Origin: Bolinopsis microptera
Lineage: Eukaryota; Ctenophora; Tentaculata; Lobata; Bolinopsidae
Assembly (NCBI RefSeq): GCF_026151205.1
Contig: NC_087084.1
Span: forward strand, 4,209,538 to 4,273,537
Direction: 5' to 3'
DNA: 64,000 nucleotides
Numbering within the stretch: position 1 is the first letter of the stretch; each line of letters opens with the position of its first letter. Shown in pieces: positions 2,975 through 54,437 of this stretch. The notes under the pieces were generated by a model, which was not told the origin of the DNA, ran no database searches, and was given only the letters and a program-made list of their open reading frames with translations. The position numbers and the translations under genes are program-made.

Positions 2975-3008
2975 ATGATGATCCTGTTGTTATTTGTGAC
3001 TAGCATTG
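2975..3008 (+). CDS. PLXDC-like exon 1 (signal peptide start)
   Basis: Starts ATGATG and encodes MMILLLFVTSI plus one base, then a strong donor GTAAGT (phase 1). Joined to exon 2 it gives MMILLLFVTSIGSCWG, a typical secretion signal. An upstream non-coding exon cannot be excluded. Confidence 0.8.
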
Positions 3009-6000
3009 GTAAGTTCATTATTCAAAGTTTCAACATAAAATATGAAACATGAGTCTCAATCAAAATATTTTGGAAGGCATTTGATCTCTCTTCATTATTG
3101 ATAATTAAATGGTGTTTTTAATTTTATTCTAATTTTCTTGCATACCTCATTTTTGAATAAGGGTGCAAATACGCTTTATATTGGGTCAGACATTACCATT
3201 GTATTTTTATTTTTGAATCGTTTAATCCGTTTAATTTACTCAGTAACATTTTTAAACGACTTTATAAGGTTACAGTTATTAGTTGAAAATAATTATCTCA
3301 GGGTCCTGCTGGGGTACCACCAAGATAACAGTTTATCAGGTTAGCTAATAAATAAGATAACAGTTTATCAGGTTAGCTAATAAACAAGATAACAGTTTAT
3401 CAGGTTAGCTAATAAACAAGATAACAGTTTATCAGGTTAGCTAATAAACAAGATAACAATTTATCAGGTTAGCTAATAAACAAGATAACAGTTTATCAGG
3501 TTAGCTAATAAACAAGATAACAGTTTATCAGGTTAGCTAATAAACAAGATAACAGTTTATCAGGTTAGCTAATAAACAAGATAACAGTTTATCAGGTTAG
3601 CTAATAAATAAGATAACAGTTTATCAGGTTAGCTAATAAATAAGATAAAAGTTTATCAGGTTAGCTAATAAATAAGATAACAGTTTATCAGGTTAGCTAA
3701 TAAACAAGATAACAGTTTATCAGGTTAGCTAATAAACAAGATAACAGTTTATCAGGTTAGCTAATAAACAAGATAACAGTTTATCAGGTTAGCTAATAAA
3801 CAAGATAACAGTTTATCAGGTTAGCTAATAAATAAGATTACAGTTTATCAGGTTAGCTAATAAATAAGATTACAGTTTATCAGGTTAGCTAATAAACAAG
3901 ATAACAGTTTATCAGGTTAGCTAATAAACAAGATAACAGTTTATCAGGTTAGCTAATAAACAAGATAACAGTTTATCAGGTTAGCTAATAAACAAGATAA
4001 AAGTTTATCAGGTTAGCTAATAAACAAGATAACAGTTTATCAGGTTAGCTAATAAACAAGATAACAGTTTATCAGGTTAGCTAATAAACAAGATAACAGT
4101 TTATCAGGTTAGCTAATAAACAAGATAACAGTTTATCAGGTTAGCTAATAAACAAGATAACAGTTTATCAGGTTAGCTAATAAATAAGATAACAGTTTAT
4201 CAGGTTAGCTAATAAACAAGATAACAGTTTATCAGGTTAGCTAATAAATAAGATAACAGTTTATCAGGTTAGCTAATAAATAAGATAACAGTTTATCAGG
4301 TTAGCTAATAAACAAGATAACAGTTTATCAGGTTAGCTAATAAACAAGATAACAGTTTATCAGGTTAGCTAATAATCAAGATAACAGTTTATCAGGTTAG
4401 CTAATAAATAAGATAACAGTTTATCAGGTTAGCTAATAAACAAGATAACAGTTTATCAGGTTAGCTAATAAATAAGATAACAGTTTATCAGGTTAGCTAA
4501 TAAATAAGATAAAAGTTTATCAGGTTAGCTAATAAATAAGATAACAGTTTATCAGGTTAGCTAATAAACAAGATAACAGTTTATCAGGTTAGCTAATAAA
4601 CAAGATAACAGTTTATCAGGTTAGCTAATAAACAAGATAACAGTTTATCAGGTTAGCTAATAAACAAGATAACAGTTTATCAGGTTAGCTAATAAATAAG
4701 ATTACAGTTTATCAGGTTAGCTAATAAATAAGATTACAGTTTATCAGGTTAGCTAATAAACAAGATAACAGTTTATCAGGTTAGCTAATAAACAAGATAA
4801 CAGTTTATCAGGTTAGCTAATAAACAAGATAACAGTTTATCAGGTTAGCTAATAAACAAGATAAAAGTTTATCAGGTTAGCTAATAAACAAGATAACAGT
4901 TTATCAGGTTAGCTAATAAACAAGATAACAGTTTATCAGGTTAGCTAATAAACAAGATAACAGTTTATCAGGTTAGCTAATAAACAAGATAACAGTTTAT
5001 CAGGTTAGCTAATAAACAAGATAACAGTTTATCAGGTTAGCTAATAAATAAGATAACAGTTTATCAGGTTAGCTAATAAACAAGATAACAGTTTATCAGG
5101 TTAGCTAATAAATAAGATAACAGTTTATCAGGTTAGCTAATAAATAAGATAACAGTTTATCAGGTTAGCTAATAAATAAGATAACAGTTTATCAGGTTAG
5201 CTAATAAATAAGATAAAAGTTTATCAGGTTAGCTAATAAATAAGATAACAGTTTATCAGGTTAGCTAATAAATAAGATAACAGTTTATCAGGTTAGCTAA
5301 TAAACAAGATAACAGTTTATCAGGTTAGCTAATAAACAAGATAACAGTTTATCAGGTTAGCTAATAAACAAGATAACAGTTTATCAGGTTAGCTAATAAA
5401 TAAGATTACAGTTTATCAGGTTAGCTAATAAATAAGATTACAGTTTATCAGGTTAGCTAATAAACAAGATAACAGTTTATCAGGTTAGCTAATAAACAAG
5501 ATAACAGTTTATCAGGTTAGCTAATAAACAAGATAACAGTTTATCAGGTTAGCTAATAAACAAGATAAAAGTTTATCAGGTTAGCTAATAAACAAGATAA
5601 CAGTTTATCAGGTTAGCTAATAAACAAGATAACAGTTTATCAGGTTAGCTAATAAACAAGATAACAGTTTATCAGGTTAGCTAATAAACAAGATAACAGT
5701 TTATCAGGTTAGCTAATAAACAAGATAACAGTTTATCAGGTTAGCTAATAAATAAGATAACAGTTTATCAGGTTAGCTAATAAACAAGATAACAGTTTAT
5801 CAGGTTAGCTAATAAATAAGATAACAGTTTATCAGGTTAGCTAATAAATAAGATAACAGTTTATCAGGTTAGCTAATAAACAAGATAACAGTTTATCAGG
5901 TTAGCTAATAAACAAGATAACAGTTTATCAGGTTAGCTAATAATCAAGATAACAGTTTATCAGGTTAGCTAATAAATAAGATAACAGTTTATCAGGTTAG

Positions 6001-9000
6001 CTAATAAACAAGATAACAGTTTATCAGGTTAGCTAATAAATAAGATAACAGTTTATCAGGTTAGCTAATAATCAAGATAACAGTTTATCAGGTTAGCTAA
6101 TAAATAAGATAACAGTTTATCAGGTTAGCTAATAAACAAGATAACAGTTTATCAGGTTAGCTAATAAACAAGATAACAGTTTATCAGGTTAGCTAATAAT
6201 CAAGATAACAGTTTATCAGGTTAGCTAATAAATAAGATAACAGTTTATCAGGTTAGCTAATAAACAAGATAACAGTTTATCAGGTTAGCTAATAAACAAG
6301 ATAACAGTTTATCAGGTTAGCTAATAAATAAGATAACAGTTTATCAGGTTAGCTAATAAATAAGATAACAGTTTATCAGGTTAGCTAATAAACAAGATAA
6401 CAGTTTATCAGGTTAGCTAATAAATAAGATAACAGTTTATCAGGTTAGCTTATAAATAAGATAACAGTTTATCAGGTTAGCTTATAAATAAGATAACAGT
6501 TTATCAGGTTAGCTAATAAACAAGATAACAGTTTATCAGGTTAGCTAATAAATAAGATAACAGTTTATCAGGTTAGCTAATAAACAAGATAACAGTTTAT
6601 CAGGTTAGCTAATAAACAAGATAACAGTTTATCAGGTTAGCTAATAAACAAGATAACAGTTTATCAGGTTAGCTAATAAACAAGATAACAGTTTATCAGG
6701 TTAGCTAATAAACAAGATAACAGTTTATCAGGTTAGCTAATAAACAAGATAACAGTTTATCAGGTTAGCTAATAAACAAGATAACAGTTTATCAGGTTAG
6801 CTAATAAACAAGATAACAGTTTATCAGGTTAGCTAATAAACAAGATAAAAGTTTATCAGGTTAGCTAATAAATAAGATAACAGTTTATCAGGTTAGCTAA
6901 TAAATAAGATAACAGTTTATCAGGTTAGCTAATAAACAAGATAACAGTTTATCAGGTTAGCTAATAAACAAGATAACAGTTTATCAGGTTAGCTAATAAA
7001 CAAGATAACAGTTTATCAGGTTAGCTAATAAACAAGATAACAGTTTATAAGGTTAGCTAATAAATAAGATAACAGTTTATCAGGTTAGCTAATAAACAAG
7101 ATAACAGTTTATCAGGTTAGCTAATAAACAAGATAACAGTTTATCAGGTTAGCTAATAAACAAGATAACAGTTTATTAGGTTAGCTAATAAACAAGATAA
7201 CAGTTTATCAGGTTAGCTAATAAATAGGATAAAAGTTTATCAGGTTAGCTAATAAATAAGATAACAGTTTATCAGGTTAGCTAATAAACAAGATAACAGT
7301 TTATCAGGTTAGCTAATAAATAAGATAACAGTTTATCAGGTTAGCTTATAAACAAGATAACAGTTTATCAGGTTAGCTAATAAACAAGATAACAGTTTAT
7401 CAGGTTAGCTAATAAACAAGATAACAGTTTATCAGGTTAGCTAATAAATAAGATAACAGTTTATCAGGTTAGCTTATAAACAAGATAACAGTTTATCAGG
7501 TTAGCTAATAAATAAGATAACAGTTTATCAGGTTAGCTAATAAATAAGATAACAGTTTATCAGGTTAGCTAATAAATAAGATAACAGTCTATCAGGTTAG
7601 CTAATAAATAAGATAACAGTTTATCAGGTTAGCTAATAAACAAGATAACAGTTTATCAGGTTAGCTAATAAACAAGATAACAGTTTATCAGGTTAGCTAA
7701 TAAATAAGATAACAGTTTATCAGGTTAGCTAATAAATAAGATAACAGTTTATCAGGTTAGCTAATAAACAAGATAACAGTTTATCAGGTTAGCTAATAAA
7801 CAAGATAAAAGTTTATCAGGTTAGCTAATAAACAAGATAACAGTTTATCAGGTTAGCTAATAAACAAGATAACAGTTTATCAGGTTAGCTAATAAACAAG
7901 ATAACAGTTTATCAGGTTAGCTTATAAATAAGATAAAAGTTTATCAGGTTAGCTAATAAACAAGATAAAAGTTTATCAGGTTAGCTAATAAACAAGATAA
8001 CAGTTTATCAGGTTAGCTTATAAATAAGATAAAAGTTTATCAGATTAGCTAATAAATAAGATAACAGTTTATCAGGTTAGCTAATAAATAAGATAACAGT
8101 TTATCAGGTTAGCTAATAAATAAGATAACAGTTTATCAGGTTAGCTAATAAACAAGATAACAGTTTATCAGGTTAGCTAATAAATAAGATAACAGTTTAT
8201 CAGGTTAGCTAATAAATAAGATAACAGTTTATCAGGTTAGCTAATAAACAAGATTACAGTTTATCAGGTTAGCTAATAAATAAGATTACAGTTTATCAGG
8301 TTAGCTAATAAATAAGATTACAGTTTATCAGGTTAGCTAATAAATAAGATAACAGTTTATCAGGTTAGCTAATAAACAAGATAACAGTTTATCAGGTTAG
8401 CTAATAAACAAGATAACAGTTTATCAGGTTAGCTAATAAACAAGATAACAGTTTATCAGGTTAGCTAATAAATAAGATAACAGTTTATCAGGTTAGCTAA
8501 TAAACAAGATAACAGTTTATCAGGTTAGCTAATAAATAAGATAACAGTTTATCAGGTTAGCTAATAAACAAGATAACAGTTTATCAGGTTAGCTAATAAA
8601 CAAGATAACAGTTTATCAGGTTAGCTAATAAATAAGATAACAGTTTATCAGGTTAGCTAATAAATAAGATAACAATTTATCAGGTTAGCTAATAAATAAG
8701 ATAACAGTTTATCAGGTTAGCTAATAAACAAGATAACAGTTTATCAGGTTAGCTAATAAACAAGATAACAGTTTATCAGGTTAGCTAATAAACAAGATAA
8801 CAGTTTATCAGGTTAGCTAATAAACAAGATAACAGTTTATCAGGTTAGCTAATAAATAAGATAAAAGTTTATCAGGTTAGCTAATAAATAAGATAACAGT
8901 TTATCAGGTTAGCTAATAAACAAGATAACAGTTTATCAGGTTAGCTAATAAACAAGATAACAGTTTATCAGGTTAGCTAATAAACAAGATAACAGTTTAT

Positions 9001-12000
9001 CAGGTTAGCTAATAAATAAGATAACAGTTTATCAGGTTAGCTAATAAACAAGATAACAGTTTATCAGATTAGCTAATAAACAAGATAACAGTTTATCAGG
9101 TTAGCTAATAAATAAGATAACAGTTTATCAGGTTAGCTTATAAATAAGATACAAGTTTATCAGGTTAGCTTATAAATAAGATAACAGTTTATCAGGTTAG
9201 CTAATAAACAAGATAACAGTTTATCAGGTTAGCTGATAAATAAGATAACAGTTTATCAGGTTAGCTGATAAATAAGATAACAGTTTATCAGGTTAGCTAA
9301 TAAATAAGATAACAGTCTATCAGGTTAGCTAATAAATAAGATAACAGTTTATCAGGTCAACTAATAAATTCATTTCAGTATCACCTTATCACTGTAGCAC
9401 TTAGCAGCAAACAATGATTTTATTATGCGATAGCTTTAACTCTTCAAGGTTGCTGCACTGCGGCTGGCTGTAGCCTGAAACACTAATATAAACTGCGCAT
9501 CGTGGTCAAATTTCTAAATGCTGACATTTTTTTCTGAAGTTTCAATCAAGTGAAGGGGAATGTATTTACATAATCAAGGACAATTAATTGATGAAATGAA
9601 GTGAAGTGAGTTGCTAACTCAAATAAAACAATAACTTTAACTCTCAGAGCACGCAAACTTTATTTTACATCTCGATTGCAGAGCACGCTGACGTACTACG
9701 ATACTGTATTAGGGGAGGGGGAGTGGACTTATCTCACCGATGAGGCAAAGGAGGTCAACTTTACAACCAGATTCGAGTGTCAGGTATTTCAACTTTACAA
9801 CCAGATTCGAGTGTCAGGTATTTCAAGTTACCACCAGATTCGAGTGTCAGGTATTTCGAGTTACCACCAGATTCGAGTGTCAGGTATTTCAAGTTACCAC
9901 CAGATTCGAGTGTCAGGTATTTCGAGTTACCACCAGATTCGAGTGTCAGGTATTTCAAGTTACCACCAGATTCGAGTGTCAGGTATTTCAAGTTACCACC
10001 AGATTCGAGTGTCAGGTATTTCAAGTTACCACCAGATTCGAGTGTCAGGTATTTCAAGTTACCACCAGATTCGAGTGTCAGGTATTTCGAGTTACCACCA
10101 GATTCGAGTGTCAGGTATTTCAAGTTACCACCAGATTCGAGTGTCAGGTATTTCGAGTTACCACCAGATTCGAGTGCCAGGTATTTCAAGTTACAACCAG
10201 ATTCGAGTGTCAGGTATTTCGATTACCATCAGATTCGAGTGTCATGTATTTCGAGTTACCACCAGATTCGAGTGTCAGGTATTTCGATTACCATCAGATT
10301 CGAGTGTCAGGTATTTTGAGTTACCACCAGATTCGAGTGTCAGGTATTTCGAGTTACCACCAGATTCGAGTGTCAGGTATTCCGAGTTACCATCAGATTC
10401 GAGTGTCAGGTATTTCGAGTTACCACCAGATTCGAGTGTCAGGTATTTCGAGTTACCACCAGATTCGAGTGTCAGGTATTTCGATTTACCACCAGATTCG
10501 AGTGTCAGGTATTTCGATTTACCACCAGATTCGAGTGTCAGGTATTTCGAGTTACCACCAGATTCGAGTGTCAGGTATTTCAAGTTACCACCAGATTCGA
10601 GTGTCAGGTATTTCGAGTTACCACCAGATTCGAGTGTCAGGTATTTCGATTACCATCAGATTCGAGTGTCAGGTATTTCGAGTTACCACCAGATTCGAGT
10701 GTCAGGTATTTCGAGTTACCACCAGATTCGAGTGTCAGGTATTTCGAGTTACCACCAGATTCGAGTGTCAGGTATTTCGATTACCATCAGATTCGAGTGT
10801 CAGGTATTTCGAGTTACCACCAGATTCGAGTGTCAGATATTTCGATTTACCACCAGATTCGAGTGTCAGGTATTTCGATTTACCACCAGATTCGAGTGTC
10901 AGGTATTTCGAGTTACCACCAGATTCGAGTGTCAGGTATTCCGAGTTACCACCAGATTCGAGTGTCAGGTATTTCGAGTTACCACCAGATTCGAGTGTCA
11001 GGTATTTCGAGTTACCACCAGATTCGAGTGTCAGGTATTTCGATTTACCACCAGATTCGAGTGTCAGGTATTTCGATTTACCACCAGATTCGAGTGTCAG
11101 GTATTTCGAGTTACCACCAGATTCGAGTGTCAGGTATTTCGAGTTACCATCAGATTCGAGTGTCAGGTATTTCGAGTTACCACCAGATTCGAGTGTCAGG
11201 TATTTCGATTTACCACCAGGTTCGAGTGTCAGGTATTTCGATTTACCATCAGATTCGAGTGTCAGGTATTTCGATTTACCATCAGATTCGAGTGTCAGAT
11301 ATTTCGATTACCACCAGATTCGAGTGTCAGGTATTTCGATTACCATCAGATTCGAGTCATTCGAGTGTCAGGTATTTCGATTACCACCAGATTCGAGTGT
11401 CAGGTATTTCGAGTTACCACCAGATTCGAGTGTCAGGTATTTCGATTTACCATCAGATTCGAGTGTCAGGTTTACCATCTGCATCAGATTGGAGTTTATC
11501 ACCAGTGCAACATATAGATTGAATCGAGCTAAAAATGTGCGATACGTTTATCTTGATAATGTTTCGCCTGAAAGATTCTATTGACATTTCTCAGACAAGT
11601 TCTAACATACTTTATTTGACAGTTTCTAACGTTACCGTTCGAGTTCCCCTACTACTCGGACATAATAAATCGTATTGGAGTGACTAAACTCGGTTTCGTT
11701 TATACAGGTATGTCAAGTTTTCTACACACTACACGTGTTCTGTTTTACTTTTAATATGTAATTTAGACATTATTGAGAACTTATTAATTAAGTTGACCAT
11801 TATGATGTAGAAAAACTTAGCATATTTTTGTGATCATGTAAGTTAGTCCCAACGTCACGTAACGACAACCTGACTTCTATAACCTGACTCCCCAATTTAC
11901 TACATGACGTTACCGAGTACATGATGTCACCGAGTACATGACGTCACCGAGTACATGACGTCACCGAGTACATGACGTCACCGAGAACATGACGTCACCA

Positions 12001-15000
12001 AGTATCCTTTACAGGTCCATTCAGTAACGCGAGGTTAACAGAACTGATGCACATTGCACCTCTAATGAACTTGTACACCTTGGAAGGTGGTACCGTCAAG
12101 TATGAGACTTTGGTAGAAGACAAAGGTAAGTGTTCTGTACTTTTACATTACGATTAAATATTATTATGAGTTGCATGATATTGATAGTTAAAACGATAAT
12201 TAAAGTAACTAAACATAGATTCAATGAGTTGAAAACGCAAACTGTCATTATCATACCATAATTTTTTATTAAACTCTATAAAGAACGGCTTTAGATTATA
12301 TCGCTAATGTAAACTTATTTTACGCTGCAATTATTCGCGAATTTTAAAAGTTTTCAAAACAGTATTTCTACCAAATATCACAACACAGAAAATAATGCAA
12401 AATTAAATATTAGCGTTTTGATAAATCGACTCTCCGAGCTAGTTTGTTGATAAGCAGATATCGCATCTTCATTTCTTGTACAACAGATATAGATTCATCA
12501 TCAATTAGAGACGTTTTCCAAGAAAAGATTTCATCTTCTTTAACACTGGCATGGCCTGGGAAATTTACTATTTAAAAAATTTTAAAAATGTATCCTCAAA
12601 TAACTACAGTTTATGTTCGAGTTGCATTATCATAATTTAATTTTATATTAATTGGCTGCTGCTGCATCAATGAAATTAAACAATTTAAAAGATTAAAAAT
12701 TGGTAAACACAAAAAAACAAAATTAAAAAATTCCCTCACTGTGTCAGCTTCACGGTCTTGATGTATCTCCAACAAACAATCGTAATGCAAATGTACTTTC
12801 AATTTCGGCTTTTTTTCTTCTTTTCCTGAAAATATACTCGATAGCTCACAATTATTTTACTATACTAATTAAGTAATTTATATAGTGAAACATATAGTAT
12901 TTCAAGTATTATATAAAGGGCCGGATCCAAAATATAACAAGAATTGCGCCCGTTGTTTCGTTTTGGCGGACGCTAGATTTCCGTTCACTATAACTATAAA
13001 TATAAGCTCCAATCAGCTCACTTCATAATAATAATATTGATACACATCAGTACACTATACTACGCATGCCACGTACAAATTGGGCTTGGCCCGCTTATAA
13101 CCTAATACTATACATTACATGCACCCTTATATACATTGAAACACAGTCGCGCCGCGCATTCATTGACCACAGGCTATCTATACATCACATCTCCGCAAGC
13201 AATCCTCGCGCGCTGCACTGCGCGCTGGTTGTCATGGTAACGGACGGAAGGACAGATGACAACATATTCAGACCCGCCTACCGCTATCTCCAAAATCCAC
13301 GTTTTTCTGCAAAAACGTCCATTCGTAACCTTTCACTATTGCCTTTTTACAAAAGGGTGAACGAAAAAATGTCGAGATTACTGGTGACCAGAAAAATTCT
13401 ATACAGGGTGTTTCATAAACAATGTCCTGATTTTAAAAAGAAATATATTTTATAATAGGAGTGCAAAAAGCCAATACTGAATATTACACACTCAAACGTC
13501 TGTCCTTTTCCTTGACGACACGGTAAGCAGTGTAGATTGGGACCATTATCAAACTGAAGGGAAAAACCCAGGGTATTCCCCCCTTATACTCCTGGAAGGA
13601 ACGATGAATTATTATTAACGTTATATTTTATTATTTATTGTATAAAAATGTTGTCCAAAAATAATCAAATATTGCAAGAGATTTATAGTATGTAAAGTAG
13701 CGTATCATAATGATAATATCATATAATATATATATATATATATAATGAAAGATAAATTATCATCAGAAACTGTAATAAGTAATTAACTAACCGAAAAAAG
13801 TTGACATCTAGAATACTTCCACTCTGTGTCCTCGTTACTTTGTATGTTCACATACCTGTGAAAATAGCAAAAAATAGTGAAAAATAGTGAAATATAGTGA
13901 ATAATTGTGAAAATTGTGAAATTCATTACTTTTCTCTTGATCAGCATTAAACTTTAAGTTGTCAAAAGTACATAACAGTAATTTTCATATACCAGGCCTC
14001 TCGGGGGAAATTTAAAGTGCAATTTTTTTCCTATCCCGTGCAAATTATAGAAAAAAAGTACAGGTGTGCAAACCATAAAAGGCATATTATATCATGTCAC
14101 AAACAATTCTTACGGACAATTTACGCACTAAACATGGTACTAACGTGTTATTCAGCATCGCAATTAGAGTGTTCAGAATGATGATAGCTCCGATAACTGA
14201 GTACGCTAACGTTAACACCAGGACAATCCAATATGTCACTATATGGTCCTTTGATAACTCCTTGTGGTGGTGGGCAGATTTCTAATTAGCTAATTAGTAA
14301 ATTAGAGTGATCGGAATGATGATAACATCAATTTCATATGACATTCATGTCAAAAACAATAGAATTAATTAATGACATAAAATTGATAATATAAAGAAAT
14401 GTAATCTTGATGACAACGATGATGACATGAAAAGAAAATATGTTCAGTGAACAATTATCTGATCATTGGCGCTATCTTTTACTTCAAGTTCTGTTTCAAA
14501 ATATTTAATTTATAGAAATTTATTTATTTGTTAAATTTATTTAATTTATGGAAATAATTATAAATCAACCGTACATCATAGCTGAAGATGTCAAAAAGAG
14601 TCCAGATCATGCTGACAAGAACTTTTTCAAATGTGCTGAACTGCTCATAGTATGGTGTGCCCGTAACCTTTCTGTGACAATTAGCAATGCAGAGTATTGC
14701 ACAAACAAATCCTGTGGTTAATTAGGAGTTAATTTAATTAATTGGACATTATTATATTACCTGTACTGAGTACATATGATTTATTGTGTCAACTAAGAAA
14801 TATTGTCATAAGTTAGCATGAACAAAATTAGAATATATATAGAAAACTAGAAAATAGAATATATTATGTAATAAACAATAGTATTACCTAGCAATATAAT
14901 CACAAGAAGGACGAGTAATTTAGCAACATCACTCAGCATCTTTTTAACAGCAAGCTGTAGAGGCCCAATCACGCTCATCACGTCCAGGAAGTTCATCACA

Positions 15001-18000: not shown

Positions 18001-21000
18001 CATAGAATCCTCTATCGGGCCATCGAAAAAGTCGACCCCCCGGACAGTGTAGAAACTGTTTTATCACCACTCCAATCAAGCAAGGAGTTTCCATTCCGAC
18101 GGCTGTATCCTGGAGCTGGAGGCTCGTCCGGAAATGACTTCACAAAGTTCGTTAAAGCCGCTTTGAATTACATAGGATCCTCGATGGTGTGCATATGTGT
18201 TGGGATTACATTCCATAATCGAGGTCCAGTGACTGCAAATGAGTTGTCATGTAGTGCTTGATTACGTTGACTGCTGGACTTAGCTATACTGGGCACAACT
18301 GCTTTTTGACCATGTCTGAGAGTCACCGAGAACTGGATACCAATATCATTAGGGCACTTGCAATGCAGAACTTTCCACATGTTGATGATTAAATACCGTT
18401 CTCTTCTTCTTTGCAATGACATCAGATCTAGGGCCTTTAATCTCTGCCAGTAGTTGAGGTGCTGGGTGCCATCTATTTTCAATGTAAACGTACGCTGAAT
18501 CCCTTCTAGCTGTTGGATGTCCTTGTTCTTAGAGCAATTCCACAGAGGACAGCAATACTCCAGATGGCTTCTAACGAGAGACTTGTACAGAGTCATCATG
18601 GTGGCTTTGTCTCTCGTTTTGAACGCACTTAGCACCCAAGAAGCAACTTTTCCTGCGCGTTCAGCTATCCTGTTGACGTGTGGGGTCCAGGACAAATCAG
18701 CGGAAACTGTCACTCCTAGATCTTTCACCGTTTGAGTGGGGTACAGCATGTTTCCGTTAGACACTTCATATGTTTGAGCTTGGATGGCGAATGGATGATC
18801 AAACAAGGAATTCTTTGGACAATGCTTGTGAACAAGAAGCTCGAACTTATCCTCATGAAGGGCCATGTTGTTGCACTTAGCCCAATTAACAACAGAGTTG
18901 AGATCATCCTGCAGGACATCTTTGTCGGCCAAACTGTAGATATGCTTAAGAATCCTAGTGTCATCAGCAAAGAATCTGATGACAGACCCTTTAACACATA
19001 GCTTCATATCATTTATGAACAGAATGAATAACAGTGGCCCAAGAACGGTGCCTTGTGGAACTCCACTGAGGATTGCGGCAGCAAACGATGATACACCATT
19101 TAACACAACACATTGCTTCCTTTCAGTCAGGAAGGATCGGATCCAGTTTACCACCTTCTCATGAAACCCCAATCTCTTCATTTTCAGAAGCAGTAACCGA
19201 TGATCGACCTTATCAAAGGCTTTGGCAAAATCCAGATATATAGCGTCAGTGTCTGCATTTCTAGTAAGACCTTGAACTATATCGTCTACGTGACTTAACA
19301 GCTGGGTAAGGCAGCTTCTTCCTGAGCGGAACCCGTGCTGGTTGTTGCAGAGTAACTGATTTTTCTCAATAAAGTCAACCATAACACCACGGAGGATACG
19401 TTCATACACTTTGATGATGTGCGAAGTGAGAGCAACTGGTCTGTAGTTGACTGCCTTGGCCCTGTCACCCTTTTTAAATAGTGGTGTAATGTAGGTGTCT
19501 TTGTAGAACGATGGCACTGTACCGTTTTCAAATGATTCCTCCCAAATAATACGTATAGGAGAACACAACTCCTTAGCACAGTTTTTCAAGAGAGTTGTAG
19601 GTATTCCGTCCGGTCCACAAGCAGAATCTGTAGAGATACTTTTTATAGCTGAAATGATATCTTCGTCACTAATTCTAAAGTCCTCTAGTTCTTGTGGGTG
19701 CTGGATAGAGGGAGGGGAGAAAACCGGATCCTTAACATCAGGAGAGGTCGGATCGCTAAACACAGAGCTGAACTGTTCCTGCAGCAGATCGGCCATTTTC
19801 TTGGGGTCTGTGGTTATCTCCTGGTTGCTATCAAAGAGCATGTTAATACTGGATTTGATCTTCGACAGAGACTTAGCATAACTGAAAAAGAACTTGGGAT
19901 TTGTTTTGATCTTTTCTACTGCCCTGGATTCCTTTTCATCAAGTCTCTTGGTATGGGCACATCGAATATCATACTGTAGGAGTGCAACCTTGTTCCTAAC
20001 ATTTCTGATGTGATCGTCAGGTGCACCATTGTTGACTAAGGCATTCAGCCTTCCCTGGAGTCGGTTCCTTTTACGCCGCAAAGCATTGGTATGTTTTGGG
20101 CGCCCAGAAGGTTTAGCCTTGCGGGGAACATGAGACGAGCATATCTGAAAGAGGGTCTCAGTAAACAAGGCTGGGAAGTCTTCAAAAGAGCATGAAGAAC
20201 GAAGTTGAGACCAGTTAGTGTCTTCTATCTCGTCTCTGAGCGAGCTGAAGTCTGCTTGGAGAAAATCAAGGCATCTGTACGAGTTTTCATCAAACTTCGG
20301 CACTGCTGATTTCTCCTGTTCAAGTGGATTATATGCTAGCATAACATCTACCACGTGATGGTCTGACATTGTTGTGGTTTTGCATTCAACATTTGTAACA
20401 ACTCGGTTGTTGTTAGTAATAAACAGGTCCAAAACATTGTTTCCTCTCGTTGGACACATTACGTACTGACTCAGCAGATGATCAGACATGAAAGTTAAGA
20501 AATGCTGTGCTGACTGCTGAATTTCTTGCGTGCCTCCAGATTGAACACAATTTGTCTGCCAGTCAATTGAGGGTAAGTTAAAGTCTCCAGTCATCATGAT
20601 ATCGTAGCTGTCGTCATTAATACTACTGATACATACGGAGAAAAAACTGAGGAGTGCTTTAAAGCTTGACAAGGATGCATTAGGCGGACGATAAGCCACA
20701 GCAACACATGTCTTTATAGTGCTGAAACTACAGAAAAGTCCTTCACACGTGCCGTCATCAAACGTGTTACACTCACTGACCGGTAAGTTGATATGAGAGT
20801 AGAGTAGAACACCCCCTCCCACCCTTGCATCACGGTCGCTGCGAGATACCGAATAGCCTGGTATTTGCAGTTGTGCGTCTGACATATAGGACTTGAGCCA
20901 CGTTTCCGTAAGTGCTATAAACGGTAACGAGTGGTTTCTGAATTTCTCATCCTGAATAAGAGCTGAGATTTCTGGCACTTTCCATCTACTCGTACTAGGA

Positions 21001-33000: not shown

Positions 33001-36000
33001 TGAGTACGCTAACACTAACACCAGGACAATCCAATATGTCACCATATGGTCCCTTGATAAGTCCTTTTGGTGTGGGCAGATTGTTAATTAGTTAATTAGT
33101 TAATTAGTTAATTATAGTGTGGAGAATGATGATAGCACCAACAGCTGAGTACGCTGGAGGGATAGATTTTAAAGAATTAACATGTCATTGATAACTTATT
33201 AATTAATTAATTAAATATTAATAAAATTTTGTATTTTAGTGTCGATGATATAATAAAAAGAAGATAATATGTTTAGTGAACACATTTCGGATCATTGCAC
33301 ACTTCGGATCATTGCACACTTCAAGTTTCAAAATACTTGATTTATAGAAGTTCATTTATTTGTTATACTTATTAAATTTATAGAAATTAAAGTAAGTTAA
33401 CCGTACGTCATAGCTGAAGATGTCAAAAAGAGTCCAGATCATGCTGACGAGAGCTTTTTCAAATGTGCTGAACTGCTCATAGTACTGTGTGCCCTTAACT
33501 TTTCTGTAACATCTGGCAATGCAAAGTATTGCACAAACAAATCCTGCGGTGTAGGAGTTATTTAAGTGGATATTATTATATTACCAGAACTAAGTCCATA
33601 TGATTTATCGTGTCAACTAAGAAATATTGCCATAAATTAGAATTTAAAAAACTAGAATATAGAAAACTAGTATATAAAAAACTAGAACATAGAATATAAT
33701 ATGTAATAAACAATAGTATTACCTAGCAATATAATCACAAGGAGGACGAGTAATTTAGCAACATCACTCAGCATCTTTTTAACAGCAAGTTGTAGAGGCC
33801 CAATCACGCTCATCACGTCCAGGAAGTTCATCAAACGGAAGAACACAAACACTTGGGTTATACCTGCAAATAGATATTATTTAGTTTGAAATAAGATAAC
33901 ATCAAGATAACATCAAGATACATTTAACATTTTAAGGCTTATTAACAATAACACTTCATAAGTTCTCAATTTCGTTGGCTACCAATATTTTCACTATGTC
34001 TGCAATTATGACCCCTAGTAAATATCTTTGTTCTCAGTACTTACTATATAAGTAGATTGAGGTCATGGTACTAGTTTTAAAACCTTCCACCAATTCCTCG
34101 GGTGTAATCAGCTGCACCTCATCTTCTATCTTTGATATGTCTACAGCCAGAGTACAATTCCAAAATCTTATAGCGAAAGCTACGATCATCAAGACGCAAA
34201 TCAGTACATCAACATTGTTCCAGAAGTTGGAGAAGTATTTTTTGGCGCCCCTCATGCAAAGTTGATACACTTCCAGTTGGATTCGTGCTAGTACACATAG
34301 CCAAAGAATTATTTCCGGCAATTCTATTTTGGCATTGCTTTGAAGAAAACGTTCTGCATAATCACGATCACTTTCGCCCCCTTTTTGATCCTTCAAATCC
34401 AAGTTGTCAGGAACTGTTAAAGCAACGTAGAGAAGAAGACCCAGAAGGATGGCATAGTTAAGAAAATCAGCAAGAAAAGAGTAGAATGGTGTGGAAATAC
34501 TCCGGGAAAGATAATCTAAACGACTATATTTAAATCGCCATGTTCCCGAAACCAAGTAGTCTTTGATTAGCAATAAAAAGTATATTGGTCCCACAAAGAA
34601 GGACGTGAACGATTTAGAAATGAAAAGAGCTTTTCTTTTGTAGCTCTTAAAATCTTTATTACCATAAAACTCTTCAAGAACTATTTCTTGGCAAAATGGA
34701 TGCGACAAAAACTTTTTTTCTTGAGTCTCCAGAGCGTTTTCAATGTAGTTGGAACCACAAAGCAAACGCCTTGCTTCCCAAAGCGTACGACAGGCATCCA
34801 AGTAAGCAAAGGTGAAATCTCTGGCTGACTTAGCGAGGATGTTGCAGTCAGTGGTGTATTCCTCTTTAATCGAAGCAACTTTGAGAAGCATACCATTAAC
34901 TTGATGGGCAGTTTTTATTGGGTCCTTAGTAAGCATCAAAAATTCAGGTTGGATAAGGGCTGTAAGGGACATCATTGCGGTGCGAGATTCTTTGTTGGGA
35001 GTTTCCAGAGTATCACACAAAGTATCCACTGCCTGCTTGATGTCTGCTCCATGAAGTAGTAATTCCCGAAGAATCCTAATATTTCCATCATCAGGTCTTA
35101 AACTCACGGATTGGCCTACATAGACTAAAGGACAATCCTTGTTTTCATCCACTTGGTTCGGATTGGCCCCGTATTTCAGGAGCATCATTGTCATATCGTT
35201 TCTGGAGGACCCCATTTTACAAGACAGAAGGAGAGGGCAATTTCCGAAATGATCACGAGCGTTTACCAGATTTATTTCCGAATGATATTTCGTTTTGCAT
35301 CCAAATTTTGGTACGATTTCTACTGGATTGCAGTAGTATTCAAGATAAGATTCCATCTCAATAACACTTCCCATTTGGATGATGAGAAATAACCTTTGCA
35401 GCCTTTCAAATCTTTGATCTGGGGTTAGGTTTCTAGCTCTTTCTTCTCGTGCTTTTATTTCTGTTTTTAACCTAGCAGCTGTAATAACTCTGTTGTTCTT
35501 TTTAATAGGTCTTCCCATCTTTCTTCGCTTTATTTCGTTCTGAAGCGAGCTGGCAGTGACGAAAGACCGATCTCTACTTTGCTTTGAATTCGATTTGATT
35601 CCAGTGGGAGTTATAGGTTTTACCTTCTCTTTGAAAGGCTGGCGTCTTTTCTCTTTAGTTCGGCGAATGGCAGTTGCGTGTGGAGGAAGAGGGGGAGGAG
35701 GAGGAGGGATGGGAATTGTTGGAGCTTCTGGGTGGTTATTAATTGAGGGAACTGGAGATGCTGTAAGAGTAGAACCACAGTCAGCTTGTGGTTTCCTTAG
35801 AGTTTGAGGTGTACGAGTAGAACTACGGTCAGCTTGTGGTTTCCTCAGAGTTTGAGGTGATGGGAGTGTTTCAGCTTGTGATGTTGGAGGTGCTGGAGGA
35901 GCTGGAGGTGCTAAGACAGGTACTGATGGTGGTTTTGATGATGGCACTGGAGGTGGTGCACCTTCAGAAAAACCTTCTAAAGATCTGGCAAGTGATTTAT

Positions 36001-39000: not shown

Positions 39001-42000
39001 GTTAACAATAAAACAAGTCGAACTACAGATCATGTTTAGCAAATTAGAAAATGTATAGTAATATAGACACATACTTTCGGAGCTGTAATTTGTTGAAGGC
39101 CGTTTATGTAAATACATGTATACAGTTACAAACACCTTGAAGACTGGTGCAATCACACTGGACTATGTGCATTTGCACTGAGAGTGCTAAATCACTTTTG
39201 ACTCTACACTCGAACTTTTGAAATTACTCGAAGTTCCAGTGCAGACCGATCTTGAATCGATGTATTTTGAAGGCTGATTCCGAATCATTCCCTTTGCACA
39301 CTAATTATAGACTAATAGATTAATTATAGTGCACGGTATTGGACAGTTGGTCAACTTGTTGATGGCTGGGGTTAAATGAAATCAGTATCTAAGAGAAACA
39401 TAGGCCTGTAGCTTAACTCAAAGAACTTTGAGTGAAACTTTCGACACTGAACGAACGGCGACCAATTTTAACAATACATCTAAACTAGGTTCAATATTTA
39501 GCCCAGGGTATATATATACAACTACTTCTACAAATTGCTTCGCAAACACAACAAAACCAACTACCAACTCAAGTCGACGCAATTGCTTCTGAGCTAAGAG
39601 TAGCAGAACTATGATAGTAGGAAGCGGAATTATAGGAACCTATTGTATTTCAGATTACGAAATATGTACTAAAGGCTGATGTTCTTAGTGTTCCTAGAGT
39701 GGGACTAGTGTCATGGACCATGGTAATTTGATACGACTACATATTGCTTATTACAACACTACAAATCTATTACATTTATTGAGTATTATGTAACGCGATG
39801 GAAATATTTTAAGCGGGTAATATGAAATATCCTGTCAAAACCCAGGATACATAACATGAAGACTTTGTTGTAACTTTGTATGAAAAGCATTAACACTAGG
39901 TATTTTATTCACAGACTCATAATTATATAGGCTGGTGAGGGCCTGACTTTGCAGGCTGCCCGCTAAATTAGTGTGATTTCAAGAAGTCATATGTAACTTA
40001 GAGAAGATCAGCTTATCTTCACGAAAAAGATGGTTTTATTATTTATATTATTTATGTATAAATTATGTATTAATATATCCAAATTGGTAGTCAAAAATAT
40101 TTCAACGAAAGCAGATTCAAAACAATTATCAACTCATTACTTGACAGGATTGAACGTGTGTAATCAGTAATACTGTAATAGTATTGTGTCTGTTGTTATC
40201 CATATTGCCTCTTCATTTAATCTAGGAATGGGGCGGAGGAAGAGCTAGAAATCAAGGAACGTGCCAAGTCATACTACTATACAACAATAGAATGGATTTT
40301 AGATAGATTTCGGATAAGACGCCAGAATTCTCCAGTTCATGAATTAGCGATCGTTTCTTTTGGGATAATCGCGTCTTAAAGTAAAATGATCGCCGCCTAA
40401 CTCAATTATAACACAATTGTGATTGTCTAACCTTTAAAAATCAACACCTTTGTTTTTAATAGTTTTAAAATATCTACAAATTGACAAATCCAATTACATC
40501 AGTTGAGGAATTTAGTTTTTCCGTGGTACAATCCCCTCTGCACTCGACTATCACGTGACTTATATATACTATACTTTCAATTTCATCCCTGAACATTCAA
40601 ATGAACCTACATAAATTGAGCCTTAACCGGAGTTTTACATGAATTAGTCTCTTTTGTTAGATATTTGAAACATCCGCAATCTGTAAACTGTGAGATAAGA
40701 ATCGGTCTGTCGGACAAAATTCGTGTTACTGATGTAGTCGTGTTACTGATTGTTACTGATTAAGCTGTTAGATAAGCACCATAAGAAGCAATTGCTGTCT
40801 GCTGACAACTTAACTTTCTCAGGAAACTCGTTCTTTGTTCTGGAATGGGCGGATCTGACTCTCCTTGACTACTCAACTACATTTCAGCTTCAACTTTATC
40901 AAGTGCGTCTTTTTACTTACTTAATATTGCATGTATAAAACACTCTTTATCGAATGGCAGTGATTAGTGTCCTAATAAAGTGTCCCTATAAAGAGATTTG
41001 ACTGTTTTGATATTGATATAAGTTGTGGTACAATGCCAGCAGTAAGTACTGTGAAGTAACTGTGAACCTACATCTCCAGAATGGCTCCATTGTGTTTGTA
41101 TACCGGAATGTGTCTGAAGGACTTTTGGATTGGTCGCTTGTTTCAATCGTCAGCGCTTTTCCCTGGGTCACACCGGCTAACCAAGGTAAAGAGACTATCT
41201 ACAAAAATAATTGATCGCTGATTTATATCAAACATAATGATTACCCATCCAACTACTCGAAATATTTGCTGGAAAACAAAAATGTATAATATGTCACCAC
41301 ATCCACACTCCACAGCATCTAAAGATCTCATGTACTACGAATACGAGGAGGTCAATGTGGATACGAAAAATATTAAAAATGGTACTGCTATCACCTTCAA
41401 CCTACGTGAAAACTGCTTGGTAAGAAACTAAGTTTTAAAATTGGATCAGAGGTAGAACAATGACACTTATGTTGAAGAAGCTTAGAAGGTAGAATAGATC
41501 AGATAAATAGATAAACAAAGGGGCCCACGGCTATAAAAATATAAAACATTCAGATGTATCATTCGCCTGTGTAAATATTGGGGACACAATACAGTTCAAA
41601 TAATAGGATCAATCACATAAAAATATGAAGTTCAAACAACGGAATCTTTTTTAAATATTTCAATCTTCAGCTTCATCAAGAATGAAATGTTGTTACCTTT
41701 TTGCCATCAATGCAGTACAATTAGTATTCCGTATTAAGTTTTACCTATCTTTGGCAATAAATTACTTTTTTATGTGAGAAATAACCCATAGTAACCTTTA
41801 TAACGTCATGTTTTCCCCAACCTCAAAGGGGCGACATGTCCCCATTAATTGTAGTCCGATAGTTTCCCTGCATCTAAATAAACCTACTAAACTTTAAATC
41901 TACTTTAAATCTACTTTAAATTTACTTTAAATCTACTTTAAATCTACTTTAAATCTACTTTAAATCTACTTTAAATCTACTTTAAATCTACTTTAAATCT

Positions 42001-45000
42001 ACTTTAAATCTATTTAACTTTAACTCTTCAGGCAGCCACCAACTGTACGACCTGTCTGGACATAGGTAAAAGTACTCAGTTTTCCTGTATGTGGTGTGAC
42101 GCACTGCAGAGGTAATACTATAAGTTTAACAAAACTCAATGTTGCATATTTATATTCCTGATAAATTTAATTTATCATTTATTAAATAATAATAAATATA
42201 TACGAGAGCACTTTAAGCTTGATTTAAGTTTTCATTCCACCTTAGTCTTACTGCAAGTATACTGTATAAGCACATGTTTCACAATGCTGGCAAGCATAAC
42301 CGTTGCCCTTATATTCACAACACTATTTACCCCCTATACTATTATATCCCCTTTATTGTTTTCCAGGCATTAAGACTCATCGAAAGTAATTCAGCAGGTA
42401 TATTTAAGTTCAAAACATTCTAATTCAATGTTAAAGATGACAGGAATAAGAAATAGTTATGTGGAGGTTTTTAAGAAATTTGCGCAAAATACGCGCCAGC
42501 ATGTTATACGAAATTAGGTAAAAAACCCAAAATCGCCATATTCAGGTGCCTTAAAAACCATGTTAAAATTGAGTCAGAGATCTGAAACGTTGCAGGGCGT
42601 CTAGACCTTGTCCAAATCGACTGTAAAAAAAATTTCATGTTTCAGGAGTATCGGGAAGTGGGTTTTCTGGAACCCCTGTTTTACAACAGATTGTCGTGAA
42701 GCATATATAATATGTATGTATGTATAGACGCTTTTTGCAGTCAATTGTAGCCTACATTTAAGTGTCCGTAGATTCAAAAGTATAAAAGATACAGTCATTT
42801 CGAACCACAGCTTTTAAAGATAATCGTTTATACTTTAGTTTACTTTATATTGAAAAATAATTTATCGTCATCATCATCACTTGATGACGTCATCAATTTA
42901 AGTGTTTTTAAAACTTGATTTTTGACAAAATAACAACTTTTCAAATCGATTTTACACCATTAAGGAGTAATTTTATTCAAAATCTGAGGACATTTTCACC
43001 TTAGATAATTGTTCAAGCATTCTGAAAATCTACCGGAAAAGTTTCTTACCTTACTCCTTCATTAAAATATTCGCTATTGAAGTTAGTGCTTTTTTGAAGA
43101 ATAATTTTATAAAAACACAAAAGTTGTGAATTAGTATTCTCTGGTGTTGGGCCATCTGTTGGGTTGTGGAGCTCAATTTTACTTCTTAAAGGTCTAAATT
43201 GTGTTATAGGCTAGTTTTAAAGTTAAAAATCGAAAAGTTGCACACGTGGGGACACGCCCAAATTGATTTAAAATAGCTAAAATCACTGAAAATTGTTATT
43301 TTCACATTGTTATTTTTGGAGTCCCGTTGTGATCCAAGTTCTTTTTGAAATCTTCTGAAACTTTGCATGCTTATCAAACTATATATTAAATACCACTATG
43401 CAAAAATTTACGGTGATTCAATATTGTATGCGCACGCAACGTCCGCTCAAAGTTTGCATGTGCGAAAGGTGAGAATTTTGCTCATTCGTGATTTCGAATA
43501 TATTCTGCTTTCCCACGATATTTAAATGGCATTATATATGAATTAAATGCCAACTTGAATGAGTAAAAAGTGCCATATTCAGTCTGTTATCGACAGATAA
43601 ACCTACCTGAACACAAGGAAACGTTTTCAAAGGTGAAATTTCAAAATTGTTGAAATTACCTCCTTATTAATGAAGTTTCGACTGTGTAAATTATCCTGAC
43701 ATTATAATCAAAAAGAGATGATATTTGACCAAAACCCATAATCATGGGTAGAGTGAACCGCTGCCAGTGTCTCTCTTTTTCAAACAAAAGGAAATGATAT
43801 TAATTTGAGGAACCGTCCGCAAATGCAAATTGATACCGAGAATGAAATCGGTCGCTCGCTTTTCCCATTCATTCACGGCTTACGAATTGTAATAAAGCTT
43901 ATTGAATGGGAAAAGCGAGCGACCGATTTCATTCTCGGTATCAATTTGCATTTGCGGACGGTTCCTCAAATTAATATCATTTCCTTTTGTTTGAAAAAGA
44001 GAGACACTGGCAGCGGTTCACTCTACCCATGATTATGGGTTTTGGTCAAATTACTAATATCAAAGATGGATTTGGTATAGTCATCCAATCCTTGACATAG
44101 ACACTGTCAAGTACTCAATTGATGTTTCTGCTATAAAATTTTCAAAACATACACATTGTGCATACACTATACCTGTACAATGTACATTATGTATACACAT
44201 AGCATATAGATAACGTATACATTGTGTATTTTTTGATAAATGGTATCTCTTCTCCAGGTGTTCAGATACGTTTGACAGCAAGTATTCTCAATGGGAGTCA
44301 GAGTGTTCCCAACCTACCACTCAGTACACAGAATGTCCTGCTAACCAAGGTAAGTAAACACCGATTTACCGCAGGGTTTGGGGAAAGAAAAACATCCGCG
44401 GTAAATAGGGGTTCGCGGTAAATCGGGGTTTTGTTTGTTTGCATTATGCATGTTAAGCCCTATTTGAGGAAAAGAAAATGGCCGCGGTAAATCGGGCTAG
44501 TAACCAGTAGCCTAGTAACCAGTAGCCTAGTAACCTAGTAGTAGCCTAGTAGCCAGTCCCCCAGTAATCTAGTAACCAATATTTAGTTACATACACTTCC
44601 TTTCTATATGCTAACTTACTGTTCTCTGACCTTGCAACCCTGTCAGATCGCAACGAAACACTAACCAGTCTATCAGATGAGTTGTTCGAGCAGCAGTTGG
44701 CTTTGTTGAACGAGTGGTTTGAAAGTCTTGCTACCTCCCTCTTTCAGTCCAGTAGTAAGTATCCAGAGTAGTGAGAGTGCATGTTCCCCACGTTATCTGT
44801 GAAATAAGTGAATCCGACCCTATCAGGAGATAACTGTAATGTTCAACTAGTATTAGTTACAGCATCTACAAGAACCTAAAGTCGAACACGCACCAATTAT
44901 GAGCACCAATTCAACCTCAGGTACCTACCTTATCTACTGTTACTGCTGCAGGCGGCGCTCAGCCTGCAGATGCACATATTAGGTGCGATGGGTGCGGGAT

Positions 45001-48000
45001 CGCACAATTTACCGTTTTCCGCACATTTCCGCATAATTCATTGTTTTCCGCACATTTTGTAATTTTCTGCATATTTCCGCATAATCTAGCATTTTCCGCT
45101 TAATTTCGCATAATTTTGAAATTTTCGCGTTAAGATTTTCGAGTGTAAAAACCAAAATATGTTAAAAGTCGGGCCCTTTTAGGACCGTGACTCAGGCCCT
45201 TTTAGGACCGTGACCCAGGCCCTTTTGGAACTCATACCTAGGCCACGTGACCCAGGCCCTTTCGGGACCCTGACCCAGGCCCTTTCGGGACCCTGACCCA
45301 GGCCCTTTCGGGACCGTGACCCAGGCCCTTTTGGAACTCATACCTAGGCCACGTGACCCAGTTACCACGTGACCCAGGCCTTTTCGGGACCCATGCCTAG
45401 GCCACGTGACCCGGTTACCACGTGACCCAGGCCCTTTCGGGACCATGACGGTCCATGACCCAGGCCCTTTCGGGACCGTTACCCAGGCCCTTTTGGAACC
45501 CATGCCTAGGCCACGTGACCCGGTTACCACGTGACCCAGGCCCTTTCGGGACCATGACGGTCCATGACCCAGGCCCTTTCGGGACCGTTACCCAGGCCCT
45601 TTCGGGACCGTGACCCAGGCCGTTATGGAACCCTCGTCGTTACCGTACTTCGATCATACCTGCAGCCCTTTATATCGGGTAATGAGCTCTATTCGTTGTA
45701 GCGTTGGCTTTATAGTGGGCTTAATGGATCTTGGATCAAATGGTTTACAAGTACTGACGATCAATGCCAACAAGCGTGTCACATATTTGCGATCACGCTT
45801 GGGATCTGATCGACTCTATCAAGAGGCGTCTTCAAATAACTGTCTCCTGATCTCTACCAGATCAAGTCACTGTTCTCAGATAACTGGATCTCAATATAGG
45901 TTCAATCATGGACTTAGTAAAGAACTACACCCTCAGTAACACATAAACAGACCTATTTTTGATAAGAGCGGCGGTTATACGTTCAGAATTTCCAAAGTCC
46001 TTCAGAAAATACAAATGAAAACCGCACAATTCCCGCACAAATTTCGAAAAAATCGTCGCACATTTGCCGCATAATTGGTAAAAATTTACCGCACCTTACC
46101 GCACATTTTACCTTTATAGTCGGGTGCGGTACCGCATAATTTCGATTTTTTTACCGCACCTAATATGTGCCTCTGTCAGCCTGTCATTCCAAATCTCCAT
46201 TCGGAGATTCATATGATTATGAACATAAATATAATAGCCTGGGGTCCCCAGGTAAAATCTACTGTATCTCAGGTACCACGTGTAACCTCAGACACCTAAT
46301 CTACTGTATCTCAGTTACCACGTGTAACATCAGACACCTAATCTACTGTATCTCAGGTACCACGTGTAACCTCAGACACCTGATCTACTGTATCTCAGGT
46401 ACCACGTGTAGCCTCAGGTACCTAATCTACTGTATCTCAGGTACCACGTGTAACCTCAGACACCTGATCTACTGTATCTCAGGTACCACATGTAACGAAG
46501 GTTTGTTCTACAGCCCCTACACGCTAAGCTGTAATGATTGTATCTATTGTGCCACCGTTGACTGTCAGGATCAATGCTCCAATGCTACCCAGGTTAATTG
46601 TGCCTGATCTTATCAGTACTTGTTTTGATTTTTAAACGAAGTGAGATATTTCCAGTGAGCTTATAACTTGTACCTGTCAAATTGTGAGGAGGTACAAGTT
46701 TAGTCAGACAATTATAGTGATTGTATATTTGAGAATATCATGTCTTAACTTAACCGGACATATTATATCAGGATAACATATCGAACATGTCTTAACCGGA
46801 CATATTATATCAGGATAACATATCGAACATGTCTTAACCGGACATATTATATCAGGATAACATATCGAACTTGTCTTAACCGGACATATTATATCAGGAT
46901 AACATATCGAACATGTCTTAACCGGACATATTATATCAGGATAACATATCGAACATGTCTTAACCGGACATATTATATCAGGATAACATATCGAACATGT
47001 CTTAACCGGACATATTATATCAGGATAACATATCGAACACGTCTTAACCGGACATATTATATCAGGATAACATATCGAACATGTCTTAACCGGACATATT
47101 ATATCAGGATAACATATCGAACACGTCTTAACCGGACATATTATATCAGGATAACATATCGAACACGTCTTAACCGGACATATTATATCAGGATAACATA
47201 TCGAACGAGAGCAACCCTCGGAAGAATATGAAAATCAAAAACTACAAGTTTAGGGACATAAGTCCTGATAGTGACTTTTGGAAATGTGAGTTGCGATCAT
47301 AATCCCGCTTATTCGTTTATTTTTATGTATTTTGTTCTGTTTATACTTATAGTTATAGAAACCGTTTGAGGATTTACATCCATGATGTTCTTTAACATCC
47401 TTTCGAAGATGATGCCAATATTTTCTTTGATTCCTGAGCATACAAAAACTTGTTTGATATGTAACTTTTTAGGAAATCAAGCAGTCTTAAATCTCCATAA
47501 CATTTAGCAACGTTATATTTTACGCCTTATGTTTTTCCATCCTTCTTGGATAGAGAAACTTACCAAAGACAGGATTCTTGAAATCAGTTATCCCCTGTAT
47601 TTTAAACGGGTGATACTCGTAAAATATTTGTTTCAAATGTTAAAGAGAGCGTCGACGAGTCCAAACCGTCGACGAGTCCAACTCGGTGCGCGTCTTGCAG
47701 TAGGTTATAAACCTACATAACTGTATAGTATTTTCACTCATTTTCTTTTCAGCTGCGTTTATAGGCATGACATGCGGGGTGGCGGTGTCAGTTTGTTTTG
47801 GTTTCCTGCTAGTCTGTATGAAGAGGAGGAACTACGTGCAACCTGGGGGAGTTACCTGGGATCCTCGTACTACTCCTGCCAGTATGGTTAGTAGTGTGTA
47901 TATTTCATATCTTACTATATATAAAGCGAGACGATATATATATATATGGATCCGTACGATTTTACTGACACCACGGCATCAACTTTAACGCGACTTTCCG

Positions 48001-48563: not shown

Positions 48564-48703
48564 GATAATGATTTTTGGGATAATATCCGGTAGTAGAGAC
48601 TAGGTAGGACAAGTGAAACTACTGTTTAGGAGTAGTTTAGGAGTAATTTCACTTGTCCTACATAGTCTCTATACTACCGGATATTATCCCAAAAATCATT
48701 ATC
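48564..48703. repeat. Inverted repeat just after the PLXDC-like stop codon
   Basis: Arms of about 55 nt (48564-48618 and 48648-48703) with few mismatches and a 29-nt loop, beginning 18 nt after the stop. It would form a stable hairpin in the 3' UTR. Probably a small foldback MITE. Confidence 0.88.
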
Positions 48704-50573: not shown

Positions 50574-50819
50574 ATGTGCAGGGGACTGCGCATGAGACAC
50601 CAGCCATTGAAAAGTTTGATGATGTCTTATAATAACAGTAGGGTTAAAGTCCCTACCACTGATTTAGATGTCGGAGGGGACCGGATTGATGACTCTCTCA
50701 CCCTAAAACTCCCTAGGAGAGGGGTGACAGATGATATGCCGGCTCCTTCACCCGGCACAAAAAATAACATAAAACAACAAAAAAGGATGGTGATGCATTG
50801 GTTTCTTGTAGTGAGGTAG
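50574..50819 (+). pseudogene. Possible displaced N-terminus of the LINE ORF
   Basis: An open frame ending MPAPSPGTKNNIKQQKRM... overlaps the RT ORF in another frame. Because the RT ORF has no ATG at its start (first codon TTG at 50798), a frameshift between about 50780 and 50815 may separate the two parts. Confidence 0.4.
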
Positions 50820-53719: not shown

Positions 53720-53809
53720 GTCAAGTAAGTCAATATTAATAGTAATATTGCAAGTCTGTATATAATACTAATAGTAATATCGCAAGTATTTGATTTTGAT
53801 ACATTGGCA

Positions 53810-54391: not shown

Positions 54392-54437
54392 AGCGCTAGT
54401 TGTCGCGTTTTGACTATCGCAAAAGAACCGAAATAAT

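Follow-up and report, generated by a model that had tools for sequence, protein, structure and literature searches.

Tandem arrays across four splice junctions of a predicted PLXDC-like gene resemble the mirages of amphioxus

Introduction

Why should four tandem arrays with unrelated units, all in one gene, each lie across a splice junction? This question is raised by a predicted PLXDC-like gene in a 64,000-nt stretch of DNA, the whole of which was analyzed and is referred to here as the window. A first-pass annotation of the window had proposed a mutational process that amplifies splice junctions, or selection for decoy or alternative splice sites, and had named no known system of this kind. 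The latter point was mistaken, since such a system has been described in amphioxus, a cephalochordate, under the name of mirages (PMC3087553, PMC3902484; these and the other studies cited are represented by excerpts). According to the excerpt of PMC3087553, mirages are minisatellite-like tandem repeats that include an exon/intron boundary, at 5' or 3' splice sites, and many of their units carry splice signals. They occur in Adh3, with units of 10–72 bp, and in the globin genes BflGb6 and BflGb9, and RT-PCR suggests that the amphioxus mirage genes are regularly spliced (PMC3087553). PGBD5 was added to these genes and troponin C is mentioned in the excerpt of PMC3902484. In the excerpt of a C. 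elegans study, intronic minisatellites were linked with alternative splicing. A genome-wide survey of junction minisatellites was not found in the literature searched, which comprised few subscription papers.

Results

Gene Model and Its Surroundings

The PLXDC-like gene model was read from the sequence as a chain of exons joined by phase. It extends from 2975 to 48546 on the forward strand, with 15 exons in consistent phase, 14 GT-AG introns, and a coding length of 1395 bases that ends with TAA and specifies a product of 464 aa. The gene name follows a resemblance and is presumptive. Searching Pfam with the product returned the PSI domain (plexin repeat) as the only match, with E = 0.0013, which is below the curated cut-off, and in the PDB no relative of the product was found up to E = 1.

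Intron 5 (12126–40822) spans 28.7 kb and contains two TRPC-like genes on the strand opposite to the PLXDC-like gene. For these neighbouring channel genes, a sequence match to TRPC3 was obtained with the one gene tested (best E 9.6e-18). The second TRPC-like gene carries a 48-bp two-copy tandem duplication in a coding exon (35762–35859), which keeps the frame. The same intron holds a LINE with endonuclease and reverse transcriptase (18168–21290) and a transposase region with DDE_1 and HTH_psq (27173–28543), both on the reverse strand. Intron 11 harbors an element at 44959–46183 that we take to be hAT-like, with an 8-bp target duplication, terminal inverted repeats matching at 20/22 positions and internal tandem repeats at 45172–45621. 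At the other end of the gene, a 12-bp array (TTTAGTAACCAT x 6; 2905–2976) runs into the predicted start codon, whose first bases are the last of the array.

Four Arrays Overlap Exon Ends

Arrays were detected by running TRF over the whole window, and the arrays and exons described in the following lie on the forward strand. Array 1 (3321–9368) consists of 189 copies (189.0) of a 32-bp unit at the 5' splice site of exon 2 (3302–3339), and the last 19 nt of this exon belong to its first copy. Array 2 (9755–11471; TRF: 9761–11471), with 52 copies (51.8) of a 33-bp unit, is located at the 5' splice site of exon 3 (9682–9783). Its first copy takes in the last 23–29 nt of the exon, i.e., 23 nt by TRF, and 29 nt when the 34-bp copy at its start is traced back to 9755. 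Array 3 (46256–46496; 42 bp, 5.7 copies) is positioned at the 3' splice site of exon 12 (46483–46592), whose first 14 nt are part of its last copy. Likewise, the first 15 nt of exon 13 (47192–47285) are part of the last copy of array 4 (46749–47206; 42 bp, 10.9 copies), which lies at the 3' splice site of that exon.

Thus, TRF and the 15-exon model confirmed that four arrays straddle splice junctions of a single phase-consistent gene, as the first-pass annotation had described. The arrays had also been said to start or stop exactly at the exon, which is not the case: in the predicted gene model, each unit spans the boundary and each array reaches 14–29 nt into its exon, as is characteristic of mirages. 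The unit lengths of 32, 33, 42 and 42 bp were reproduced by TRF, with the correction that the copies of array 2 nearest exon 3 measure 34 bp, the unit being 33 bp otherwise. Both kinds of boundary are duplicated, namely the donors of exons 2 and 3 and the acceptors of exons 12 and 13.

Three introns consist largely of these copies. Array 1 accounts for 6029 of the 6342 nt of intron 2 (95%), array 2 for 1688/1839 nt of intron 3 (92%) and array 4 for 443/599 nt of intron 12 (74%), and array 3 fills 227/1728 nt (13%) of intron 11. The splice signal is repeated with the unit: CAG|GT is present in 185 of 189 copies of array 1, in 49/52 copies of array 2 and in 5/6 copies of array 3, and array 4 has CAG|GA, the acceptor only, in all 11 copies. 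TCAGG at the junction is common to all four otherwise unrelated units. Two further arrays end short of acceptors and do not overlap an exon: an 11-bp array (41891–42017; 11.6 copies) ends 14 nt before the exon 9 acceptor, and a 17-bp array (11901–12004; 6.1 copies) ends 10 nt before that of exon 5.

The arrays share with mirages, as excerpted, the repeated exon/intron boundary, the occurrence at both 5' and 3' sites and the presence of splice signals in many units, and hence agree with mirages in the anatomical features accessible to testing. The difference is one of extent, with four arrays in a single gene and about 189 copies in the longest of them, as compared to 3 or 6 copies in amphioxus BflGb6 (PMC3087553, in excerpt). 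The likeness is anatomical; regular splicing and a length that is unstable between alleles or in the soma are further features of mirages, and the arrays are known here from one DNA sequence.

Two further systems were compared on the basis of excerpts. Introns can be gained when an exon segment containing AGGT is duplicated in tandem, an established model (PMC4974935, potato RdRp; cited in PMC3087553) in which, as in the arrays, tandem duplication across an intron-exon boundary passes on splice signals. CAG|GT in the units of arrays 1–3 is in line with an origin of these introns by this route. However, copies would then be expected at both intron ends, and arrays 1 to 4 sit at one end, with 313, 151, 1501 and 156 array-free nt before the opposite exon; they lengthen one side of an intron and give no sign of a new one. 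Since copies are absent from one end of each intron, intron gain was not favored, and it is regarded as extremely improbable. Human internal tandem repeats in segmental duplications (PMC2812944) likewise have minisatellite units of about 30 bp, some of them at an exon-intron boundary, but these are repeated four times on average, occur in recent paralogues and were proposed to form new introns.

Coincidence of Arrays and Junctions

In a junction scan, 24-mers centered on the 28 junctions of the PLXDC-like model were used to search for duplicates within 700 nt. The four array junctions had near-perfect local duplicates (23 or 24/24), and the other 24 junctions had none (13–16/24). For 1500 background positions outside arrays, the median was 14, the 95th percentile 17 and the 99th percentile 23. 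None of 22 junctions of TRPC-like genes, which were set by eye and do not comprise every junction of the three genes, was locally duplicated (best 18/24; the two exon 4 acceptors included gave 13 each). At these 22 junctions, the earlier observation that the TRPC-like genes lack the pattern holds.

Chance coincidence was assessed first with uniform placement, counting array edges located inside an exon and no more than 30 nt from a junction. For the five arrays with a period of at least 20 and about 5 or more copies, the fifth of which lies inside a transposable element, 4 edges were counted vs. 0.16 expected (P = 5e-5; 0/20,000 draws reached this value). The values were 4 vs. 0.34 (P = 8.5e-4) for the 10 arrays of period of at least 20, and 4 vs. 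0.96 (P = 0.021) for all 28 arrays in the span, a set obtained by merging TRF rows by hand. When straddling arrays were counted instead of edges, P was 0.005, 0.019 and 0.096 for 5, 10 and 28 arrays, respectively. Secondly, every array was collapsed to one seed, and the probability of at least 4 of 5 seeds on junctions was computed. It amounted to 2.5e-6 for the gene as a whole, 8e-4 with intron 5 omitted and 1.4e-3 with both intron 5 and the hAT-like element omitted. With each seed confined to its own collapsed intron, the joint probability was 1.3e-3, and it rose to 6.1e-3 when the intron 11 element was disregarded. In the compact part of the gene, random seeding is expected to give 0.10–0.15 junction hits per seed, and 4/5 were seen.

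Hence, the P value for the junction arrays varies with the null chosen, and all these figures are flattered because the gene was picked for its pattern. The first-pass view that the geometry is hard to see as chance stands under uniform placement (2.5e-6 to 5e-5) and is weaker under nulls that take short introns into account (about 1e-3 to 6e-3).

These figures bear on the idea that splice junctions attract a mutational process, so that arrays are seeded there more often, for example by DNA damage linked to transcription or splicing, or with CAG|GT acting as microhomology. The four of five sizeable arrays found on junctions against 0.16 expected edges, the seed nulls of 2.5e-6 to 6e-3 and the recurrence of TCAGG in four unrelated units speak for such targeting. 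Against it, TCAGG is the ordinary look of a splice junction, 24 other PLXDC-like and 22 TRPC-like junctions show nothing, the window was chosen for the pattern, and P is only 0.02 when all 28 arrays are considered. Targeting is an interesting possibility that is compatible with the window, and it is considered rather unlikely as the main explanation.

Local Growth from the Exon Edge

In arrays 1 and 2, copies farther from the exon have more mismatches to the exon-bearing copy (Spearman 0.21, P 0.004, and Spearman 0.41, P 0.002, respectively). Neighboring copies are more alike than average pairs (0.81 vs. 0.98 for array 1 and 1.23 vs. 1.52 for array 2). The 34-bp form of the array 2 unit is common to the exon-bearing copy and the next one, and later copies are mostly a 33-bp derivative. 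These features match the expectation for arrays that grew locally, starting from a seed at the edge of the exon. The distance trend of array 3 was not significant (P 0.14), and its neighbors are less alike than average (2.8 vs. 2.33). The copies of array 4 are identical to the exon-bearing one at the bases compared and show no significant polarity.

An ungapped scan of both strands of the whole window found no close copy of any of the four units outside its own array, the best outside matches being 23/32, 22/33, 25/42 and 27/42 for arrays 1–4. The units therefore appear to have arisen locally, and an origin from a mobile element was not favored on the same grounds. Gapped local alignment revealed a piece of the unit of array 3, in diverged form, at 44915–44940 (forward strand), in the same intron and upstream of the hAT-like element. 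Its alignment score of 36 exceeds the best of 100 shuffles (29) and the best of 25 other stretches (23). Since this piece lies beyond the element, array 3 or a forerunner may once have been wider.

Conservation of the Core and Splicing with Other Copies

Selection might keep the arrays because their copies act as splice sites of a decoy, alternative or recursive kind and thereby adjust gene output or protein length. The retention of CAG|GT in 185/189, 49/52 and 5/6 copies would fit this explanation, as would the raw counts of mismatches in the CAG|G core, which are lower than in the rest of the unit for array 1 (4/945 vs. 120/5103; Fisher P 1.5e-5) and array 2 (3/260 vs. 53/1453; Fisher P 0.036). 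In arrays 3 and 4, the core is no different from the rest (1/30 vs. 7/211 and 0/55 vs. 4/403, respectively). However, the raw Fisher test counts shared variants repeatedly, and the non-core excess in arrays 1 and 2 is concentrated in a few columns. Variant runs were therefore counted per column. The non-core mean exceeded the core mean (2.74 vs. 0.8 in array 1 and 1.14 vs. 0.6 in array 2), but the median non-core column, like the core, had no run. Thus, selection on the core was favored by the raw test and not by variant runs, in a comparison that has little power because the arrays are so uniform.

The consequences of splicing at other copies differ between the arrays. None of the 184 alternative CAG|GT donors of array 1 and none of the 10 alternative acceptors of array 4 leaves the frame open. 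The frame of exon 3 stays open with all 49 alternative donors of array 2; 31 of them are out of phase with exon 4, and 18 are in phase and open, the first one 495 nt downstream. Each of the five upstream acceptors of array 3 is in frame and leaves it open, and four of them score the same as the model site. Therefore, splicing at the exon-proximal copy is most critical for arrays 1 and 4, and the predicted alternative sites of arrays 2 and 3 could lengthen the protein by residues of the repeat, in multiples. The open sites of arrays 2 and 3 would suit a decoy function and the closed frames of arrays 1 and 4 would not. Taken with the variant runs, the selection for decoy sites suggested by the first-pass annotation found no clear support and is very unlikely.

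Splice sites were scored with a matrix built from 12 donors and 12 acceptors of the PLXDC-like gene itself. Two sites scored below the training range, namely the donor of exon 3 at 6.0 (training donors 6.4–12.1) and the acceptor of exon 13 at 3.2 (training acceptors 4.1–15.4). Weaker in-phase sites exist outside the repeats at 9753 (exon 3) and 47225 (exon 13). These low scores and outside sites, together with a gene model predicted from the DNA sequence and a PLXDC homology that is weak by profile, could mean that the model is wrong and that the coincidence stems from picking splice sites inside repeats. On the other hand, the phases agree across 15/15 exons and every intron has GT-AG ends. 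Among the sites listed for each of the four exons, the one in the array scores best. An erroneous model is given little credence.

Discussion

The arrays are probably mirage-type junction minisatellites, which would have arisen through a small, nearly neutral duplication across each junction and subsequent expansion. A short tandem duplication of 32–42 bp across the exon/intron junction would have been the start, with the new copy carrying a few exonic bases and the splice site. Splicing would use the exon-proximal copy, i.e., the first donor in arrays 1 and 2 and the last acceptor in arrays 3 and 4. Such a duplication would be close to neutral because the exon-proximal copy still yields the same mRNA. 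The extra copies would lie in intron DNA and could have been enlarged to 6–189 by slippage or unequal exchange, so that the arrays would lengthen introns from one side and make no new introns. We infer the use of the exon-proximal copy, the near-neutrality and the engine of slippage or exchange; the geometry, the similarity that falls with distance in arrays 1 and 2 and the lack of close copies elsewhere in the window are direct observations. Several points run counter to this explanation: the splice sites of the model were chosen inside the arrays, with two of the four scoring low; other copies are predicted to be usable in array 2 (18/49 donors) and array 3 (5/5 acceptors); junction hits at 4/5 seeds exceed the 0.10–0.15 per seed expected from random seeding; and a significant polarity was not found in arrays 3 and 4, the neighboring copies of array 3 even being less alike than average.

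As mirage-type minisatellites, the arrays look like a large new example of mirages and not like a new system. Junction arrays would represent a route for intron lengthening without a change of the mRNA, and they pose a question of splicing, namely what singles out one donor when some 189 nearly identical donors are present. It is a tentative and fairly doubtful extension that, in animals other than amphioxus, a mutational process repeatedly seeds arrays on junctions, with introns growing from copies of their own splice sites. If this is true, the PLXDC-like gene is an extreme case, with three introns made up of 74–95% junction copies. An enrichment of such arrays genome-wide would link splice junctions to local DNA instability and would provide a testable source of intron growth and, as in arrays 2 and 3, of in-frame alternative exon ends.

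Other Repeats and Mobile Elements

In an Rfam search, no family reached the gathering thresholds. A second LINE (50768–53719, forward strand) is flanked by satellites on either side (49300–49900 and 53800–54420). Relatives of the two LINE proteins of the window were not found in genome_contigs or viral_contigs (one scan each). The left satellite contains AACCAGCGCT 11 times, and the right satellite has only the reverse complement of this sequence, in 4 copies. A related 17-mer is present on each side in both orientations. Upstream of the PLXDC-like gene, a 43-bp array is present at 2049–2666, and a similar single copy (33/43) at 49286–49328 lies beside the left satellite, suggesting a common repeat source. 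Two palindromes, at 43723–44051 and 48564–48703, have exact arms of 149 and 32 nt, respectively, and are perhaps foldback or MITE-type elements.
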